A DNA stretch of 64,000 bases from Diphasiastrum complanatum (lineage: Eukaryota; Streptophyta; Lycopodiopsida; Lycopodiales; Lycopodiaceae). The position numbers were made by a program, and so were the translations under genes. The stretch spans positions 769,699-833,698 of the forward strand of contig CM055097.1 in assembly GCA_029204225.1 (NCBI GenBank). Direction: 5' to 3'. The notes beneath the pieces are model-generated. The model made no database searches and was not told the origin of the DNA. It saw only the letters and a program-made list of their open reading frames with translations. This document shows, piece by piece, positions 9,077-63,650 of the stretch. How positions within the stretch are numbered: the first letter of the stretch is position 1; each line of letters begins with the position of its first letter.

Positions 9077-10066
9077 GTGTTATTGCATATCATGTGTGGT
9101 AGTAAAAGATCACCTCAAAGATCTGTATGTGTTATGTCATGCATTGGAGAATCTCTTAGGTCTGTTCTTCCAAAAAAGTCTATACGAGCATTAACGAATA
9201 ATGCTCGATTTGAAAAAATGAAGAATGAAATTATTGGAATGGTTTTAATTAAGGTTCAAACATTATTGGATGTGGTACAAGGAACATGTGATTATATTGG
9301 AATAAGCAAAAGTGCCTATCCAATGTTTTTTAGAATTGTGCAAGAAGAATTTGCTCAAGCAAATAAAAAAGACATCATATCTTCCTCGTCTGTTTTGAGT
9401 TCAATTAGCAAGAAAGTAGTCAAACCAAGTAATGTTTAAAGTGGTAGGCCAACATTTTGACATGACTGAATTATACAAATCTAAATACGATGATCTCAAA
9501 TACAATGATTGTTATAATATTTTTCTTGATCTTAAAAATATTCTTGCATATATGATCCAATTCTATATACTAAATGCAAATAAAAAAATTATGAAGTTGA
9601 TTATTGTAATAAAAGTAGATGAATCAAAGTCTACCAAAGGTCAAAAATTAGAATGCGTTAGCATCACTTTGATGAACAAGATATCCGATGACTGTGCATT
9701 TAGCATTGAATTGGAGAATCACATATGGTGGATAGCAAAATTTTGGGTACCTTTTTATGTGGTCATTGTTTTGTTTGAATTTTGTCTAAAAAAACATTGT
9801 GTTTGTACACATAATCACACAATCAAAAAAAAATTGTAGGTTTTGAAAGAAGATTATGAGAATTTTTCATGAATATTCTCATGGATAAATTATGACATCA
9901 TTATAAAAGAACATTTGCAAGGTCAAAAATTTATTGTTGAAAATCATGGAATTTTTTAAATCAAATGACACCTTGTAGGTGATCTAAAAACATTAAAATG
10001 TACATGTAATATTTCACATGGTGCAATTGCAAAACTCCATGTCTTAATCAATTGAAAGATTGTTAT
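9077..10066 (+). pseudogene. Decayed unknown gene, possibly from a DNA transposon
   Basis: Two plus-strand frames overlap at 9432-9439 and read as one protein after a frame change: SKRSPQRSVCVMSCIGESLR, IIGMVLIKVQTLLDVVQGTC, then HFDMTELYKSKYDDLKYNDC and KSTKGQKLECVSITLMNK. A third segment near 9972-10060, in another frame, reads HLVGDLKTLKCTC. From memory, a D-L-K-x-L block followed by a small-residue and Cys region occurs in long uncharacterised proteins of transposon-rich animals and plants, but I cannot name the family. Homopolymer A runs at the breakpoints fit decay. No intact start or stop was chosen. Confidence 0.4.
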
Positions 10067-10305
10067 GACATGAATGTGGAAGCATGTTGAAATTCCAATG
10101 TGAAAATGATTGTAATAGTAGGTGGTTTTGTGTTATGGATAGGCAAGCACTCATTAGCTTGACTTTCCCACTTTGGTCGAATGATAGAAAAGTCCAACCA
10201 CTACAGCTACACTTTATCATTATGTGAGTGCACCTCCCGTGAATTTTGACTTTGAGGTCCACCTTAAGGCAGCTGCAGCTCAGTGTTTGCAGCTCAGTGT
10301 TGTAC

Positions 10306-54981: not shown

Positions 54982-55755
54982 TGTGTTGCAAGGGCATGGC
55001 ATCTTGCGCGTATAAGCCCATGGCCCAATGAGCACGCAAGTTGAGTTGTAAATAGAATAATAGACTTGGGCCCCTTTGTATTAAAATAAAACTTGAGGCC
55101 CAAAGTCATTTTAAACTTAGAAGTCTATTATTTTAGAGTTGGGTCCAAAGGGAGACTCACATGAATCATGTGAAATCCAATGTACTTTTTTGAGACCTTT
55201 GGATCAAGTTGGGTCCAAGATGAATGGATAGGATTAGTGTACATATTAGCCAATAGTATTTTGGGGCAAGGGCCTTTCCCATTTATAAAAAGGCACCTCA
55301 TGTACTCTATTTTGGATGCTTAATGAGAAGGAGGAAACTCTACCATTTTTGGAAGAGCAACATCCTCATTTGCTATTCAATGCTTGCTATTGCTATTGTT
55401 GCTTCCTATTTGCTTTCAAATACATGCTTTCTTGGTTTCCATAGTTAATGTTTCTCCTTTAGCAAGTAAAATGAGCATTTGGGCTAACCTCCACTCTCAC
55501 TCTCACTCTCTATCTCACTCTCCCTTTCTTCTTCTCTCAATCTCTTCTATTCTTCTCTTCTCATTCACCAAAAACCATGATGAAGGTAGTTTAGGGGAGT
55601 AGACTTAGGGGTGTGTAGTGTTAGTGGTGGTAGAGTTAGGAAAAAGTAGGGAACTAACTAAAAGTAGCATCTATTCATAGTTAGGCACCTATCCAGTGTT
55701 CTAACCCTTGTTGACAAGTGGGAGGGCTATACTACGAGAGATCTTCGACCCTACA
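54982..55755 (+). repeat. Gypsy LTR inserted in a minus-strand gag
   Basis: Ends CCCTACA just before the PBS at 55757. TATA box (TTATAAAAAGG) at about 55283-55293 and a CT-rich stretch at 55494-55560. The left boundary is inferred from where the gag frame is lost. Confidence 0.55.
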
Positions 55756-55756
55756 G

Positions 55757-55772
55757 TGGCGCCATTGCCGGG
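55757..55772 (+). other. Gypsy-type primer-binding site
   Basis: TGGCGCCATTGCCGGG, one base from the plant gypsy consensus over this length. Confidence 0.8.
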
Positions 55773-56507
55773 TATAGGTTTCCACTAACTTGAGCAATAA
55801 TCAGCTCTTGCTACAACTTTGTGATTTTTGCTCACAGCTGGGTGTTGTTGGTTGCCAAATGGAGTACCCAGCTGTCCAATGAGGCCCTAGTTATTACCGC
55901 GTCCTGGATGAATGTTCCCAAGGCTTGGTAGGTCGTCGTTAAGTCCATTGGAGTAGCTAGTACATTGACGCTTGTAGGAGTTCGTGTGCTAGTGGCCCCG
56001 ATGACCTGTACAATGCCGTTGTCGTCGTCTTCAATGAGGTTCTCCGGTTATCCATTAGGAGATATTAGAACTCAAAAGGGGCCCTTTGTCAAGATGTTGT
56101 TTTTGACTTCACACGCTTTCAACGCTTATGTGTCCCAATGAATGGTGTCCATCTGTGATGAACTGTAATAGTGGTTGACGGACGAAAATTATATTTAACT
56201 TTCCTGGCCAAATTTTTGTGATTTTCAAATATCCCGTTAGGCTGAACAAACAATTGTGATTGGACCACAGTTACTGCCCGAATACTCATATGCTGCCCAT
56301 CATTGTACCCTCGAGGTTGATTTGACGTCAATAGTCGTAAACTATAGTTAACTAATCCTTATAGTTTAGGAACTTCTTGTCATTCATAGGTATACCTCTT
56401 ATTTTCTTTATTCTATCTCTTATTTTGGATTGTCATTCTTAGGTCTACCTCACTTTTTTTTGCTACATTCTCTCCGTTCTCAGCTTGCGTACTCGTATTT
56501 TCGACTA
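55773..56507. other. Spacer, no gene
   Basis: Remnant of the interior of a plus-strand gypsy element, then the upstream region of the gene at 56508. No motif recognised. Confidence 0.4.
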
Positions 56508-57845
56508 ATGGCTACACATAATCGGAGACCAAGAGGATCCATTGATGCAATCAATATTTGCAATGAAAAAAATGCAGAAGATCAATGGATACCAAGAATA
56601 TATCGAAAATATCAATGGATCTTGATGCATCCCTCTGCAAAAGGCTCATTCCGAAAAAGAAAAAGATCGGATTACATATATGAAAGCTCTTGAAAAGGCA
56701 GGATAATGGATTTTAAAGTATCACCTACCAGTTAACCTATCACTGAAGTTTTAGTTTAACATGCTTATCTTCACAATGAGCTCAACATTCATGATTTGAA
56801 TCCAAATGATAGAAAAAAATGCAATTGTAAGTTTTCAGATTTAATTTCTTTAGAGTTAGTATTTTCTTTAGATTATATTTTTCTTGTGATATTTTTGTTG
56901 GTTTTGCATATTTGTATCCATCAAATTTCGTTGAATGGCAAACAATTCAATCGATTGTAGGAATAATCAATGTCATACATTCGGATATCGGTATTTTACA
57001 ATATAAAGGTCGTTCTTCAAAATCACTTCAGGAGTTTTCTTTTATGATCACATCTATTTTCCTGAAAAAAATGGTTTAGTTGGTAGATTAGAGCCATATC
57101 CTTTACCAGATTTTTTGAGTGAGGAATGGATTTATTTTGATGCAGCAATTTCATAAAGTTTCCGATCTAGGCTATATATAGATATTCAGAGTATATTAAA
57201 ATGTAGCACTGGATCAAAGAATAATAGATTAAATTGGTATCTACCTTTTAATATTTTTCTTGATTTTTTTTTCAAATGCAATGTTCAGAGAACAAAAACA
57301 ATGTTTATTTGTAAGGACTTGAGTGCCGAAATAATCGTCGAGTTGTTGGATGATGGTTGGGATACAAAACAAAATCAGCAAGTTGAGTGTAGAGTATGTT
57401 ACTCATCCATGACATTTAGATATCACATTGAAAAACAAATGCTCACTTTGCTGTTGTATTATAGAAGATGGATAAAATGCAAAAATGTTTGGAAGCCACT
57501 TGATCAAGATTTTGGTATAAACCCTCAAGAGCAACTTCAGATAACAGTGAAAAGAAATGACAACATTCTTGCAATGGTTGAGGTTGAGGAAGATTGGTGT
57601 TTTAATCACATTCGATCAGAACTAGACATGTTGCAATTCGATCTACTTCAGTACTATCAATTTCGATTGAATGGTGTAAAGGTATGTTATGCCATATAAA
57701 AATATTTTTTTTTCTATTTCTAAGTGAATCAGTTTCATAAAATATATTAACTAAAATAATTTCTCTTGTGCAGGTAAGAGTAAGGCAAGAAGAACATATA
57801 AAACGCAAAGATATTGGAACATCCATTGAAATTGAAGATCCATAG
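56508..57845 (+). pseudogene. Decaying intron-containing gene, unknown; pair member 1
   Basis: The ATG at 56508 opens a frame with WIPRIYRKYQWILMHPSAKG followed by FRKRKRSDYIY and a stop at 56693. The same motif is in the minus-strand gene at 59656-59369. Downstream pieces are protein-like: FAYLYPSNFVEWQTIQSIVG (from about 56905), then with a frame change near 57035 DHIYFPEKNGLVGRLEPYPL and PDFLSEEWIYFDAA, a TAA at 57154-57156, and an open run to 57681 (LSAEIIVELLDDGWDTKQNQ, WCFNHIRSELDMLQFDLLQY). A clean GT-AG intron (57682-57773, phase 0) joins FRLNGVK to VRVRQEEHIKRKDIGTSIEI and a stop at 57843-57845. The end (IR-E-D-QFDLLQYYQFRLNGVKVRVRQE) has the rhythm of a ubiquitin-like beta-grasp fold, which is inference only. 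Function unknown. Confidence 0.55.
57682..57773 (+). other. Intron
   Basis: AAAG|GTATGT donor and TTGTGCAG| acceptor, 92 bases, T-rich before the acceptor. Removal keeps the frame in phase 0. Confidence 0.65.
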
Positions 57846-57954
57846 ATTATGAACTATGGAATTTTGTATTACGTAATACAATTTTTTGTATACATCATTT
57901 ACCACTTTTTTTGTGAGGCTCTTTCATTTCTATGATCTCCATTTCCATGGTGCA

Positions 57955-58090
57955 AAACACAATGTAATTGCAATTGGATAATATGAGTTTTCGATATTGT
58001 CTCCATTTATTGTCTCTTGTAGGATATTGACATTATCTCCATTGGGGAGATCTTCAGTCACTTGAACTCCATTGACCACTACAATCAGAT
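57955..58090 (-). repeat. Copy of the terminal exon of the Ulp1-like gene
   Basis: The minus strand reads EDLPNGDNVNILQETINGDN then IENSYYPIA, parallel to SPTEIMHFR, ETIKLVIENSYPVVV at 58660-58500. The DNA similarity covers roughly 100 bases. It suggests a tandem duplication of the gene's 3' end. Confidence 0.5.
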
Positions 58091-58612
58091 ATCGAATCGA
58101 TGCTTGCCCTTGTTGATGTCTCGTATATATCGATTGTATTTTTTGTCTTCATTGCCTTGGTCTGTATTGTCCTTGTCTTGGCGTATTTGGATTTGTTCAG
58201 AAGATGTTCTGATCAAAGCTTTGTTGTAACAAATCTAAGTTTGTTGCATGTTTGGATTGGTTGTGGCAAAGGTTTGATCAAATCATCTTTCTAAACTTAT
58301 CCAAAAAAAAACCATGGTAAAGGCAAGACAGACCAAGGCTATGGAAAATCGTAGAAATTGAAGATGAATGAATCATAACATGAATTAATAATAAAAAAAA
58401 AACAAGTAAGAACAACCATAGAAAACTGTATATATATCTCCATTAAAATTTTCTGTACATGTGTCTCATCCACATCAAGTGAGACAAATACTTAATCAGT
58501 ATCAACTGTCTATGATCTCTAAATCCATTTCTCTAGTTGGAAGTAGCTTGGGTGGAGAACACTCGACCACTACAACTGGATATGAATTTTCGATCACAAG
58601 CTTTATGGTCTC

Positions 58613-59656
58613 CTACCTGAAGTGCATTATCTCCGTTGGGGAGACCTTTGGGCATTTAAACTGAAAAAAAATATAAACAGAGTGAAATGTAATTAATCAA
58701 AGATTAGTAAATATGAATTTGAATACGAAAAAAATAACAACACAATTAAAAGTTATTAATCGAAGATTACCTCTTCCAGATTTGGAAGTCCGACTTGTAA
58801 TGCAAGCCAATCAAAAAAGTGTTTGGTATTGCATATGGTATACCAACCACAACTGACAGAATCAACCTGCTGGGAGGACTGCAGAATCCAAATTTTAACA
58901 TTATGAGATATCGGATCAACGCGCATGATGTTATAATTAGATCTACAATGAAAAAAATACGCGTCAAACCGATATCCAAAAAATATTGTTTGAATATCAG
59001 ATCAGCACGCACATTATGAAAAGAAACCAAACAATAACTAAAAGGGCGCGTCAAATCGATATTGATAAATTTTTACCTCTGCATCAACAAATTTTAGCTT
59101 CGTATATGCTTTTGCATTTGGTACTAGAAAGAGTTCCAGTATTTTTTGGATATGGCTCCTAGCAATTTTGTGTGTGTGTGTGTGTAATATTAGAGTTCAT
59201 CTTTAAACAAACTGGATTACACACACCCTCATCATTGACGTATAAGGACAACACATATAAGCTCCAATGATCACTGCACTCAGAAATAATAAATTTATGA
59301 GAATCAATGTGAAATCAAAATTCATATGAAAAATTCAATATAATAAAATCTGTAAAAAAGACACTTACTTTGTTATGTATGACAGCACGAGAATTGGAGT
59401 CCCCAGTCTAACGTATTGGAACATATCATATGAAATCCAAAATTTTGACCTTCCAATAAGATCGAAATGATAGTTTTGACCTTTTGCTTTTTTGAAATGC
59501 TCCTCTTGATGATGGATGCATCAAAATCCAAGAGTTTTTTGAATATTTTCTTGGCACCCATAATCCATTATCATCTTTCTCGTTGATTAGAAGCACATAG
59601 TTGATTGAGGAGCACGGCTTCCTTGATGGCACCATTCGTAATGTGCATGCAAAAAT
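58613..59656 (-). pseudogene. Ulp1-like (C48) cysteine protease gene with introns, decaying; pair member 2
   Basis: Four exons on the minus strand: 59656-59369, 59273-59077, 58878-58771, 58660-58613. Introns have GT-AG ends (GTAAGT/TGCAG, GTAAAA/CTGCAG, GTAATC/TTTCAG). Exon 1 carries LWVPRKYSKNSWILMHPSSR as in the plus-strand partner, then in the +1 frame FWISYDMFQYVRLGTPILVL. Exon 2 continues with the catalytic histidine motif (ITNDHWSLYVLSLYV, phase 2 junction), then CLKMNSN where the family usually has LDS, then ARSHIQKILELFLVP. Exon 3 holds the oxyanion Gln and nucleophile in QVDSVSCGWYTIC. This layout is that of SUMO/ubiquitin-like proteases. Damage: the exon 1 frame shift, a frame-breaking (AC)8 tract, Asp replaced by Asn, and a TAG after IMHFR. 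Plants also carry Ulp-like genes inside transposons, so a mobile origin is possible. Confidence 0.68.
59170..59185 (-). repeat. (AC)8 microsatellite inside the protease exon
   Basis: Eight AC units on the coding strand. Upstream and downstream protease motifs are in different frames; one more unit would align them. Confidence 0.85.
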
Positions 59657-60099
59657 CTGAAACACTGAAATATGAATTTGAAAATCATGCGTAGACAAAA
59701 AGCCATGAATATGAGAAAATATGTTGGCATAACTTTAAAACACTGATCTATTTGGAGCCACGAATTAACTTCGGTTAACCCTGTTAACCATGACTTGACA
59801 ATGCATATACATTAATGGTACATCGATTTTCTCATCTCAACCATCTATCATATTCATTTTCAATATTTTTGGGTCTCTTTAGGCAGTGATGAGCTGGAAG
59901 GGCAGGCCTCATCAACCAATAACATTTCCAGATGCTTTCCGATGAAATAGCAATATATATTAAAAGTTTTTATTTTATTTATAAAAAAACATCTTTTTCA
60001 AAAGCCCTCTTCGGGCTCTAGGTTTCTCTAATGTTAGACAATTCCCCACTTGAAATCTAGTCTCAATCCCCATGTCCATCATTCCGATGACAAAAAACT
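59657..60099. other. Upstream region of the Ulp1-like gene, no exon identified
   Basis: A TTTCAG acceptor-like site at 59657 suggests an earlier exon further right, but none could be recognised. Confidence 0.35.
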
Positions 60100-60972
60100 T
60101 ATTCCAGGTACATATAAGACTTCCATCAGCCAATCCATTTGTGTTTTACTAATTACAACAAGAACTTGACCTGTTCCTTCTGCTACAATAGGCTTGTTAT
60201 TGCCCACAAAGATGCTAATAGGAGGATCCAAATACTTGAAATCTCGAAGCATAGCATGTCCTCTCAGTCTTCTTTTGGAACTCCCTTTTTCCCTTGGTGT
60301 ATTGCTTCTTTGTTTGCTTCTGTCAATTTTGGGTATGATTTCATTGAGATGTCATGAGCAAAGCCATCTCTTGGTTAGATTGTCCTACCATTTTGCTTCT
60401 TCTTATCTGCATGATTCTTGCCATTGCTATCTCTAGAATTAATAAGTCTTATTTTTCATTTGCATATTGAGCTTTTATAACAACAATGGTGGTCTCAAAG
60501 GATTCAGGTAATCCTACAAGAAACAATACAGCTACATCCTTCTCTTTCATGGAAAATCCTAATGCTCCTAGCGCCTATGAGCATTCTTGAATCTCCTTAC
60601 ATAGGAGGTGATTGATTCGCCTTCTGCTACTGCCATATGTGTCAGCTCTTTCTACAAAACAATCCTGGAGGTCACTCCTACTCCATGATATAGATTCTAC
60701 AAAGTCTTCCAAACATCTTTGGGTGTTTTCATGTCTCTGACCTGTGCTATCTCCCAGAGACAGACAAATGATCGAGAGAGCCTCTTCATTCTCTCCTTGA
60801 ACAATCTCCTTTTCTCCACTATGTTAATCGACGTGCCTTCTTCGATTATCGCTTCTGTCTCGATGCCTGAGACAAGATCCCAGAGTCCTTTCTCATCTAG
60901 GATCAGCTGTATTTTCAATGACCATACATCGTAGTTTTCTTCTTCCAGCTTTTCAACTTGCCTTGTCTCCAA
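60100..60972 (-). mobile_element. Ty1/copia relic: Gag and protease start
   Basis: Gag N terminus KLEEENYDVWSLKIQLILDE, KGLWDLVSGIE, MKTPKDVWKTL (60972-60697), then in other frames AVAEGESITSYVRRFKN, and a protease piece VAEGTGQVLVVIS, MEVLYVPGI near 60100-60190. Many stops. No LTR seen. Confidence 0.75.
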
Positions 60973-61717
60973 CTATGAGCCATCCTTATTGGCGCTACAC
61001 TGCTTGTCGCCTTTTTGCTGATTTGATAGCAGTAATGATGAACAATCCTTTACAAAAGATTGTTCGCACTCAATCCAATTAAATAATGTCAAGACTCTTA
61101 GAAAGTGCAACACACGTTTTGTGGGCCCATAACCCTTGTTGAGTGCTCAAGCATGCAATGATTAACTAATGATGCAACCAAAAGATTCACACATAAATTG
61201 TAATCATGCATCAATCTCTACAGCAAAATATTATAGTACTAAAAGACCTTTACATTAAAAAAATAGTACATAATCACTTCAGTGATGATTGCCAGCACAT
61301 GCAATCTCGATACACCATCTCTTCAGTACTCATCAAGAGGCATACACAAACTGCCAGGACATCACATATTTATCTTCTAGTTAACATGTTGCTACCACCT
61401 ATTACTCGCATCATTTCAGCCTAAACACAATCACATTATCTATCTAACTACCAACCACCTAATATGTCAACTGATCCTGAAACTACTCTTAACTAAATGA
61501 TCTACCAGAAAAATGTTCATTGATCTATGGCCTTAACAAAATTTTAGTAAAAAACCATAAAAAACTAGCAATCTTTGACTAAAACTCGTGAAAGAGAGAC
61601 ACGAGAGTCCCCTCCCAAAGATGGATATGCCCTCCTCGTAGGAGTCGACTTGGTACATCTTGTTGTATAGGTGGTGATCATGATGTGACCTCTCCATCTT
61701 GTATAAGGCCATACAAG

Positions 61718-62532: not shown

Positions 62533-63201
62533 TCAAGAGCTGAACTTAGACTTGAGCCTCTCAACTTGCTTCTTGCCAATGTTAAACGCCTTCTCAAGTA
62601 CTGCATTACTAATGTCACTGCCAAACAATGCATTGGGTATCAGTTGAACTCCAGGATTCTGACTATTCAAGGCGGAGATGGCTAATGCGGGCACCTTGCC
62701 TACGTTGAGCTGAAAGTGCAGCAGACCTTTGGGAAAAATAAACAGGTCTCCTTTCTGTAGAGTTTGAGCAAACAAAGTGTTTGCTGTGTCCACAAACCCC
62801 ACATAAAGAGTGCCTTCAGCAAGATACAGGACTTCCGTAGCGCGCGGGTGAGTGTGGAGCGTCACCAGTCCTCCTGGTGCAAAGTCCAGACGTGCCATAG
62901 AGAGGCCGAGAGTGTTAAGAGCGGGGAATTGGGCTGCAAAAGCAGGAGTTACTGCAGACCCGGCTTTGTTAGAAGTGCTACCAGGCTTGCCTAACCCATG
63001 GAATGCGAAGTCCGAAGCATTCACAGTTGAGGGATCTTTGCAGATGAGACCATTCAATAGGATTGTGCTCTGTTGTGCCACACAAAAGTCCTGCAGCGGG
63101 TCAGCGTCGTTTGCAAGGACTGGGACAATAGTGAGACTGACAAATATGACGAATACGCAGAAGCCGGACTTCCTAGTTCCTCGAGCCGAAGAGTTGTTCA
63201 T
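62533..63201 (-). CDS. Germin-like protein 2, 222 aa
   Basis: Intronless, same length as copy 1 and about 95% identical in protein. Starts MNNSSARGTRKSGFCVFV with a signal peptide to about residue 30. The germin boxes and all four metal ligands (His116, His118, Glu123, His162) and the Cys40/Cys54 pair are unchanged. Substitutions cluster in the signal peptide and in the C-terminal helix (SNAVLEKAFNIGKKQVERLK here). An upstream minus-strand TATA-like stretch (TATTTAAAAG, near 63553-63562) is matched by TACTTAAAAG in copy 1; if it is the promoter, the leader would be over 300 bases. Both copies look usable. Role as for copy 1. Confidence 0.93.
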   Translation of the reverse strand: MNNSSARGTRKSGFCVFVIFVSLTIVPVLANDADPLQDFCVAQQSTILLNGLICKDPSTVNASDFAFHGLGKPGSTSNKAGSAVTPAFAAQFPALNTLGLSMARLDFAPGGLVTLHTHPRATEVLYLAEGTLYVGFVDTANTLFAQTLQKGDLFIFPKGLLHFQLNVGKVPALAISALNSQNPGVQLIPNALFGSDISNAVLEKAFNIGKKQVERLKSKFSS

Positions 63202-63650
63202 TGCAGCAAATGCGATTGCAGTCGGAGGGATTCAAGATTGCAGGTTACAAGATCAGGAACCAGAGCGCGAAGGTAAGCGATAACCAAAGTAATTTTTAGA
63301 TATGGAGATTATTGAACCGTGGTCAGTAGCTGAATTAACGGCATTAGGTAGGATATCGACCGTTTCACAGTAGCCTAACTTCCTTCGCAGGCTTAATTGT
63401 GATGTGGATACTTTGACTGCTAGCATGAAAGCTCAGGAGCACAAAGAGGACATCCAAGAAAAAACTCCCTGCAGAGGAAGATTGCAAGGGTGATCGTGAC
63501 ACTCTGGCTCTGAAATCAGCTGGTCTTGTTGTCGAAACTTGAACTCTAGGGCTTTTAAATACATGGCCATGGAGTCTGGGCATAGTCAACCAACAAGACT
63601 GCCTCCATGAACGAAGTGTTTAGTGTCTTTTGCTGTGGGTCACAACCCAC

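Follow-up and report, generated by a model that had tools for sequence, protein, structure and literature searches.

A histone H3-like and Ulp1-like fusion gene, probably an accessory chromatin protein gene of a high-copy inverted-repeat DNA transposon in Diphasiastrum complanatum

In the stretch of DNA that we have analysed (64,000 nucleotides, G000:C6:769699-833698, hereafter called the window), the minus strand between positions 59429 and 58613 very probably carries the 3′ half of a gene that belongs to a DNA transposon of high copy number with terminal inverted repeats (TIRs), most likely an accessory gene whose product would be a chromatin protein. As reconstructed from its copies in the genome (1.74 Gb searched), this gene joins in a single frame an H3-like histone domain, a linker rich in Pro and Ser and the beginning of an Ulp1-like domain, which later exons complete; that the encoded protein acts against silencing is possible, and we propose it tentatively, by analogy with known systems.

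The exons of the gene in the window, all on the minus strand, are the last part only of exon 1 (59429-59369, DMFQYVRLGTPILVLSYIT, about 20 codons); exon 2 (59273-59077, DHWSLYVLSLYVNDEGVCNPVCLKMNS..., containing DHWSLYVLSLY...), which holds the His position of the Ulp1-type active site and has Asn where Ulp1 has Asp; exon 3 (58878-58771, SSQQVDSVSCGWYTICNTKHFFDWLALQVGLPNLEE, i.e. SSQQVDSVSCGWY...), which holds the Gln and Cys positions; and exon 4 (58660-58616, FKCPKVSPTEIMHFR), supported by the sequence and by the same exon in other copies, with the stop codon TAG following it in the sequence (58615-58613). The borders of exons 2, 3 and 4 are GT-AG with matching phases, the introns being putative, and exon 2 of the window copy is frameshifted in a CA repeat, where it reads in two overlapping frames (59272-59174 and 59181-59077). 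A sequence-only reading of this DNA had proposed four GT-AG exons that reconstruct HWSLYVL...QVDSVSCGWY: exons 2-4 have been confirmed in that order, with their borders and phases, and they are more than a chance arrangement because the same exons recur in other copies, while from exon 1 the last 20 or so codons hold and the rest of the proposed N-terminal part does not. The H3 domain and the linker that precede this part of exon 1 in the better copies are missing from the window copy, and no H3 match occurs anywhere in the window. Beside the protease gene, at 58150-58343, lies an imperfect palindrome (70% over about 197 bp against its own reverse complement), a stretch with inverted-sense matches in several other copies.

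The H3-like domain is recognised by the core histone family PF00125 over residues 35-130, with 67.9 bits against a cut-off of 26.4 (E 1.3e-18), the sequence tested being the reading of one copy (L014/L029 region). The search of the PDB with this domain returned 174 distinct sequences at E <= 0.001; the best 60 of the 174 are all histone H3 or H3 variants (E 3.7e-17 to 1.3e-15), aligned mostly over residues 36-130, and the identity of the fold to one PDB H3.2 is 35 of 95 residues. A centromeric H3 (CENH3), which is distinguished by a gap at loop 1, has been rejected: the matches listed are ordinary H3s and the alignments listed have no gap at this loop.

The connection of the two domains is seen in the 22 loci that were fetched through the protease part (L004-L016 and L018-L026, where L024 and L025 are near twins): 14 of these loci have the H3-like domain, equally oriented, ahead of the position that corresponds to 59429, and no H3 match was found in the other eight. 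The frame that runs from the H3 domain through the end of exon 1 is free of stops over 417 aa in L083 and over 427 aa in L082, although L082 has lost the Met codon at the start position; therefore, the H3 domain, the Pro/Ser-rich linker and protease exon 1 form one frame. The genome search with the H3 reading has matched 150 of the 150 places scored, out of 9349 candidates, at 82-93% identity (E <= 2.0e-76). Locus L015 was considered as a spliced retrocopy and rejected: a deletion has brought its exons 2 and 3 next to each other, and this deletion also removes coding sequence. In L081 (2457-5117, plus strand), a polyprotein, which we take to be copia-type by its likeness, stands in frame behind the H3 domain and gives a 558-aa open frame.

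The Ulp1-like part is less easily assigned. Ulp1-type proteases have His, Asp, (Gln) and Cys at their active-site positions; in most copies, HWSLY provides the His position, SQQ the Gln position and CGWY the Cys position, while the Asp position reads Asn, mostly as LKMNS, wherever it is readable, and Asp occurs in no copy compared. Against Peptidase_C48 (PF02902), the reading joined from several copies scores 12.1 bits, with a gathering cut-off of 20.7 (E 0.17), and single copies give sub-threshold matches in four of eight (best E 0.014). The HMM check proposed by the sequence-only reading, i.e. its spliced window exons against PF02902, returned no match at E <= 10, a null to be read with the fact that HMMER discards most matches above about E 0.1; the test has turned out divided, with the window copy failing to match and the better copies matching below threshold. 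A profile of eight copies found two PDB matches at E <= 10 (E 0.47 and 0.48); both are SENP8 sequences, and the part that aligns is the Gln...Cys-Gly region. C48 membership is, therefore, weaker than had been assumed: the score lies below the Pfam cut-off, the PDB profile matches are weak, and the active site reads Asn for Asp; going by its sequence, we call the domain Ulp1-like and keep it outside the C48 family, and because of the same substitution catalysis may have been lost.

The genome also holds a full C48-type protein of its own, its best PF02902 match, in an unbroken 257-aa frame (L001, 1333-2106, plus strand), which presumably resembles DEN1/SENP8. It aligns with the Ulp1-like part over the Gln...Cys-Gly region as well, with a pairwise score that was reached by 40 of 2000 shuffles; the hhalign comparison with the protease profile gave a probability of 1.9%, and for this reason no claim is based on it.

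The coding frames of the fusion gene show constraint. In frame, the pooled pN/pS of the H3 part is 0.435, calculated from 136 pairs of 17 copies (median dN/dS 0.398), and that of exon 1 is 0.436, from 253 pairs of 23 copies (median dN/dS 0.394), compared with 0.648 and 0.809 in the shifted frames of the H3 part and 0.692 and 1.036 in those of exon 1; when only the H3 fold is compared (19 copies), the ratio is 0.457 in frame and 0.617 and 0.761 in the shifted frames. These ratios support the view that selection at the level of the protein probably acted before the copies decayed. The test is a modest one: its pairs are non-independent, some of the shifted frames give values that are not close to 1 either, and mutation driven by methylation could distort the ratios. 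The decay itself, which the sequence-only reading had suspected, is evident: the 17 H3 copies contain 19 stop codons, with a stop in 12 of them; 10 of the 23 exon-1 copies contain a stop; the window copy carries its frameshift in exon 2; and no copy with every gene intact was found among the copies read.

The decay of individual copies would also be expected of captured cargo, i.e. of pieces of a host H3 gene and of a DEN1/SENP8-like protease gene that were transduplicated in the style of Pack-type elements and have no function, and the H3 sequences of fungal hAT elements are described, in the available part of the source, as mostly truncated and inactivated (PMC6710886). We consider this explanation unlikely: the in-frame ratios of the H3 part and of exon 1 (both about 0.44, whereas the shifted frames range over 0.62-1.04) and the recurrence of the H3-protease architecture in 14 of 22 loci speak against it, as does the low identity of the fold to canonical H3 (35/95), which fits a long evolution as a protein and not a recent capture.

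The element that carries the gene has been delimited by its ends and by the endpoints of its copies. Its right terminal inverted repeat is located in the window at 56053..56087 on the plus strand (CATTAGGAGATATTAGAACTC...), as seen from copy endpoints and 25-mer matches; the alignments of 38 other scored copies start at 56047-56055 in 31 cases and further in for seven. Read inwards, the right repeat (CATTAGGGGATATTAGAACTCAAAATGGGCCCTTT) gives a 25-mer with 923 genome matches, and the left repeat (CATTAGGGGAAATATGGGCTCAAAATGGGCCCTTT) a 27-mer with 748, both at one mismatch or fewer and both with controls at 0. The look for terminal repeats that had been recommended has thereby given a positive answer, and the idea of a mobile-element family has been borne out, the protease exons being part of a high-copy TIR DNA transposon.

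Two further genes belong to the element. Gene B (56508..57824, plus strand, MATHNRRPRGSIDAINICNEKN..., located by tblastn) is convergent with the protease gene and is broken by stops and frameshifts in the window, where its pieces are 86%, 87% and 95% identical to a reading joined from other copies, with one overlapping piece at 54%; the left gene is presumably transposase-like, judging from its look. For neither gene B nor the left gene did any Pfam family score over its cut-off. A relative of the transposase-like gene is found elsewhere in the window as a remnant with stops (9176-10034, plus strand; protein identity 53-56%), and a DNA match at 9404-10079 is 68.6%. The long copy B (C10) has 13.2 kb, about 3 kb of which were not found in L048; another long copy (C3:74360848-74372714; 11,867 bp) has, judging from the coordinates of the ends, an equally long twin at a distance of 48 kb, and in the former copy the H3 part is absent and a long unrelated stretch stands in its place.

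Target-site repeats have been searched for in seven left-right pairs of ends among the matches listed (100 of the 923 right and 100 of the 748 left matches), the pairing excluding a twin of exactly the same length and a pair separated by 45 kb. Just one base past the right end, two of the seven paired copies carry a repeat of 5 bp (CTTGG, CTTCG), which the other five lack; in 42 crossed pairs of ends, there was no repeat at the same offset, and one 5-mer and one 4-mer occurred at other offsets. We describe the element as a TIR DNA transposon and assign it to no superfamily. For a MULE of the KIU-type VANDAL group, no Mutator or VANC Pfam match over the cut-off was found in the readings scanned (for VANC, provided that Pfam has a model of it), and inverted repeats are present; a single DBD_Tnp_Mut match in a window frame reached 12.9 bits against 25 (E 0.092). 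Transposons of the CACTA (En/Spm) type have CACTA termini and target duplications of 2-3 bp, and this class has been rejected, the ends reading CATTAG here; a Helitron reading of the 3′ CTAAT was dropped, both ends being inverted repeats. A left end at TGTAGAG, taken from copies A and B, was withdrawn because copy B, L044, L048, L049, L053, L064 and L067 share sequence beyond this motif, which is merely the place where copy A is cut.

In copy B, one pair of inverted repeats encloses both the gene of the H3-Ulp1-like protein and the transposase-like gene, and a module that binds nucleosomes could direct integration; the protein might, then, be a part of the transposition machinery that directs the transposase complex to nucleosomes, with no anti-silencing role. 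We hold this to be unlikely, though the evidence fits it and the anti-silencing reading alike. In the two copies that show a target duplication, the ends are just 1959 and 3434 bp apart, which speaks against it, although other copies could have supplied the proteins. Among the functions that we have weighed for the fusion gene, we retain anti-silencing as the tentative one.

The window copy of the gene owes its unusual appearance to the junction at 59429..59431, where two repeat families meet, as the endpoints of their copies demonstrate. On the protease side, 40 of the 3205 candidates found with the query 59700-58500 were scored (41 rows, with one short extra piece): the 39 other copies start exactly at 59429 in 33 cases, at 59428 in one, at 59448 in three and later in two, so that the three that start at 59448 extend 17-18 bases beyond the junction. 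On the opposite side, 40 of 1832 candidates were scored with the query 59760-59425, and the 39 other copies end exactly at 59431 in 34 cases and within 2 bases of it in five. Because this query ran only 6 bases past the junction, the better evidence comes from the fetched copies L033-L037: all five lose the match to the window at 59431 although the query continued, and beyond this point four of them still match one another as far as the fetched piece reaches, or nearly so, and the fifth does so for about 300 bases. From these sharp endpoints at 59429 and 59431, it follows that two repeats have been brought together.

The sequence that lies beyond the junction, at 59431..60033 on the minus strand, appears to belong to a related element: it contains the start of a gene B paralogue (59626-59432) and a CATTAG terminus of its own. 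Its open frame (59734-59429) ends at the junction, differs from the frame of the protease exon, and is 48% identical over 65 aa to the start of gene B (E 8.9e-16). The terminus-like sequence CATTAGAGAAACCTAGAGCCC is found at 60033, with CATTAGAGAAAC(C/T)TAGAGCCC common to the window, L034 and L035; L033, L036 and L037 lack it at the corresponding position, where they may have been cut. The CATTAG ends at 56053 and 60033, together with the junction of the repeats, make the locus a mosaic, in which the window copy has lost the 5′ half of the gene and has been joined to the fragment of the related element by a rearrangement that none of the other copies scored from either side displays. The N-terminal segment that the sequence-only reading had attached to the protease (LWVPRKYSKNSWILMHPSSR, about 59563-59504) is located inside this fragment, is reached by none of the 39 other scored copies of the protease repeat, and is, therefore, a foreign repeat in another frame and no part of the protein. 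A separate C48 protease family defined by this segment is practically untenable: the segment does sit upstream of the exons in the window, but the sharp junction, the different frame that ends there and the match to the start of gene B, a gene encoded on the opposite strand of the element, refute the fusion for the copies scored. The architecture reported earlier is an artefact of the junction, and the gene that underlies it is more unusual than the one reported.

The surroundings of the locus offer some further observations. About 113 kb away, L084 (G000:C6:713900-716100) is a twin of the flanks (57430-61514; 98.7-99.5% identical) without window positions 58613-60460 (the break being uncertain by 36 bases), i.e. 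without the entire finding, and the twin region also matches window 55300-57700 at 100% (rounded). On the minus strand of the window, a frame at 60700-60972 (LETRQVEKLEEENYDVWSLKIQLILDEKGLW...) resembles, as we take it, copia gag, and a 232-codon open frame at 62536-63231 presumably encodes a germin-like protein.

In histone H3, Lys9 and Lys27 carry silencing marks and Lys4 carries active marks. The tail of the best copy, L038 (MARTKQTARGHPGG), starts with MARTKQTAR, like canonical H3, and close variants of this start occur in other copies. Among 17 copies, numbered without the Met and counted after the removal of 8 loci that duplicated others or were nearly identical to them, Lys stands at position 4 in 14 of 15; position 9 is Gly in 13 and Val in two, with Lys in none of the 15; all 16 copies readable at position 14 have Ile there; and Lys has not been seen at positions 18, 23, 27 or 36. 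From about position 24 to 37, the tail is rich in Pro and Arg.

These features suggest a possible course of anti-silencing. The H3 part would bring the protein into nucleosomes or next to them; its tail would keep Lys4 yet could not carry the Lys9 and Lys27 silencing marks; the Ulp1-like part would act on silencing factors that carry SUMO, NEDD8/RUB or a similar ubiquitin-like modifier, which it would remove or bind; and, as an outcome, the transposon would escape silencing. The binding to chromatin, the action on SUMO or NEDD8/RUB and the benefit of escape are all steps that we infer by analogy. A bolder version seems quite improbable to us: here, the element would supply its own H3 variant, paired with H4 in the nucleosomes at its copies, with a tail that accepts the active Lys4 mark and no Lys9 or Lys27 methylation, and the Ulp1-like part would strip the modifier, leaving a patch of chromatin that cannot be silenced.

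The closest known systems share one half of the architecture each. An Ulp1 domain occurs in some VANC anti-silencing genes of eudicot VANDALs, where its precise function is described as unknown, and VANDALs that carry KIU induce the hypomethylation of related copies, according to the accessible portions of PMC13317346 (for VANC, see also the portions available of PMC5735166 and PMC10398659). The likeness to VANC-Ulp1 (KIU/Kaonashi), which belongs to VANDAL, a non-TIR MULE, is a transposon-encoded Ulp1-like protein; here, in contrast, there are an N-terminal H3-like domain, CATTAG inverted repeats and no known transposase family over the cut-off. In Dothideomycetes, a hAT element, a TIR DNA transposon of about 9.5 kb, has amplified an H3-like sequence to hundreds of copies, and the main text of this source, where the H3 is a transduplicated copy, contains no occurrence of Ulp1 (PMC6710886, in part); the amplification of an H3-like sequence by a TIR DNA transposon is common to both, whereas here the H3 shares its frame with an Ulp1-like domain, and its coding sequence is under constraint. 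SENP8/DEN1, the NEDD8-specific C48 protease, is the only protein whose PDB sequences were matched by the eight-copy profile, and it differs in the weak scores, in the Asn for Asp and in the H3 domain that stands in front. With canonical H3, the domain shares a gapless alignment of the histone fold, the tail start in L038 and the HAKRVTIMPKD motif; unlike it, the domain has diverged in its fold (35/95), lacks, in the copies compared, the tail lysines 9, 14, 18, 23, 27 and 36, and has a Pro-rich tail and a long C-terminal extension. No description of an H3-Ulp1 transposon gene was found in the open-licence PMC literature, as far as titles and the starts of abstracts go.

Since all 150 H3-like places scored fit the H3 of the transposon at 82-93% identity, a large number of the sequences in this genome that resemble H3 or Ulp1 are genes of the transposon and not of the host, which calls for care in annotation. 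To our knowledge, transposon-encoded anti-silencing factors come from few families. If the proposed function is true, a transposon protein that is part H3, lacks the silencing lysines and bears an Ulp1-like domain would be a direct counter-measure at the level of chromatin, and it would provide a testable link between modifiers of the SUMO/NEDD8 type, the marks of histone H3 and the escape of transposons.
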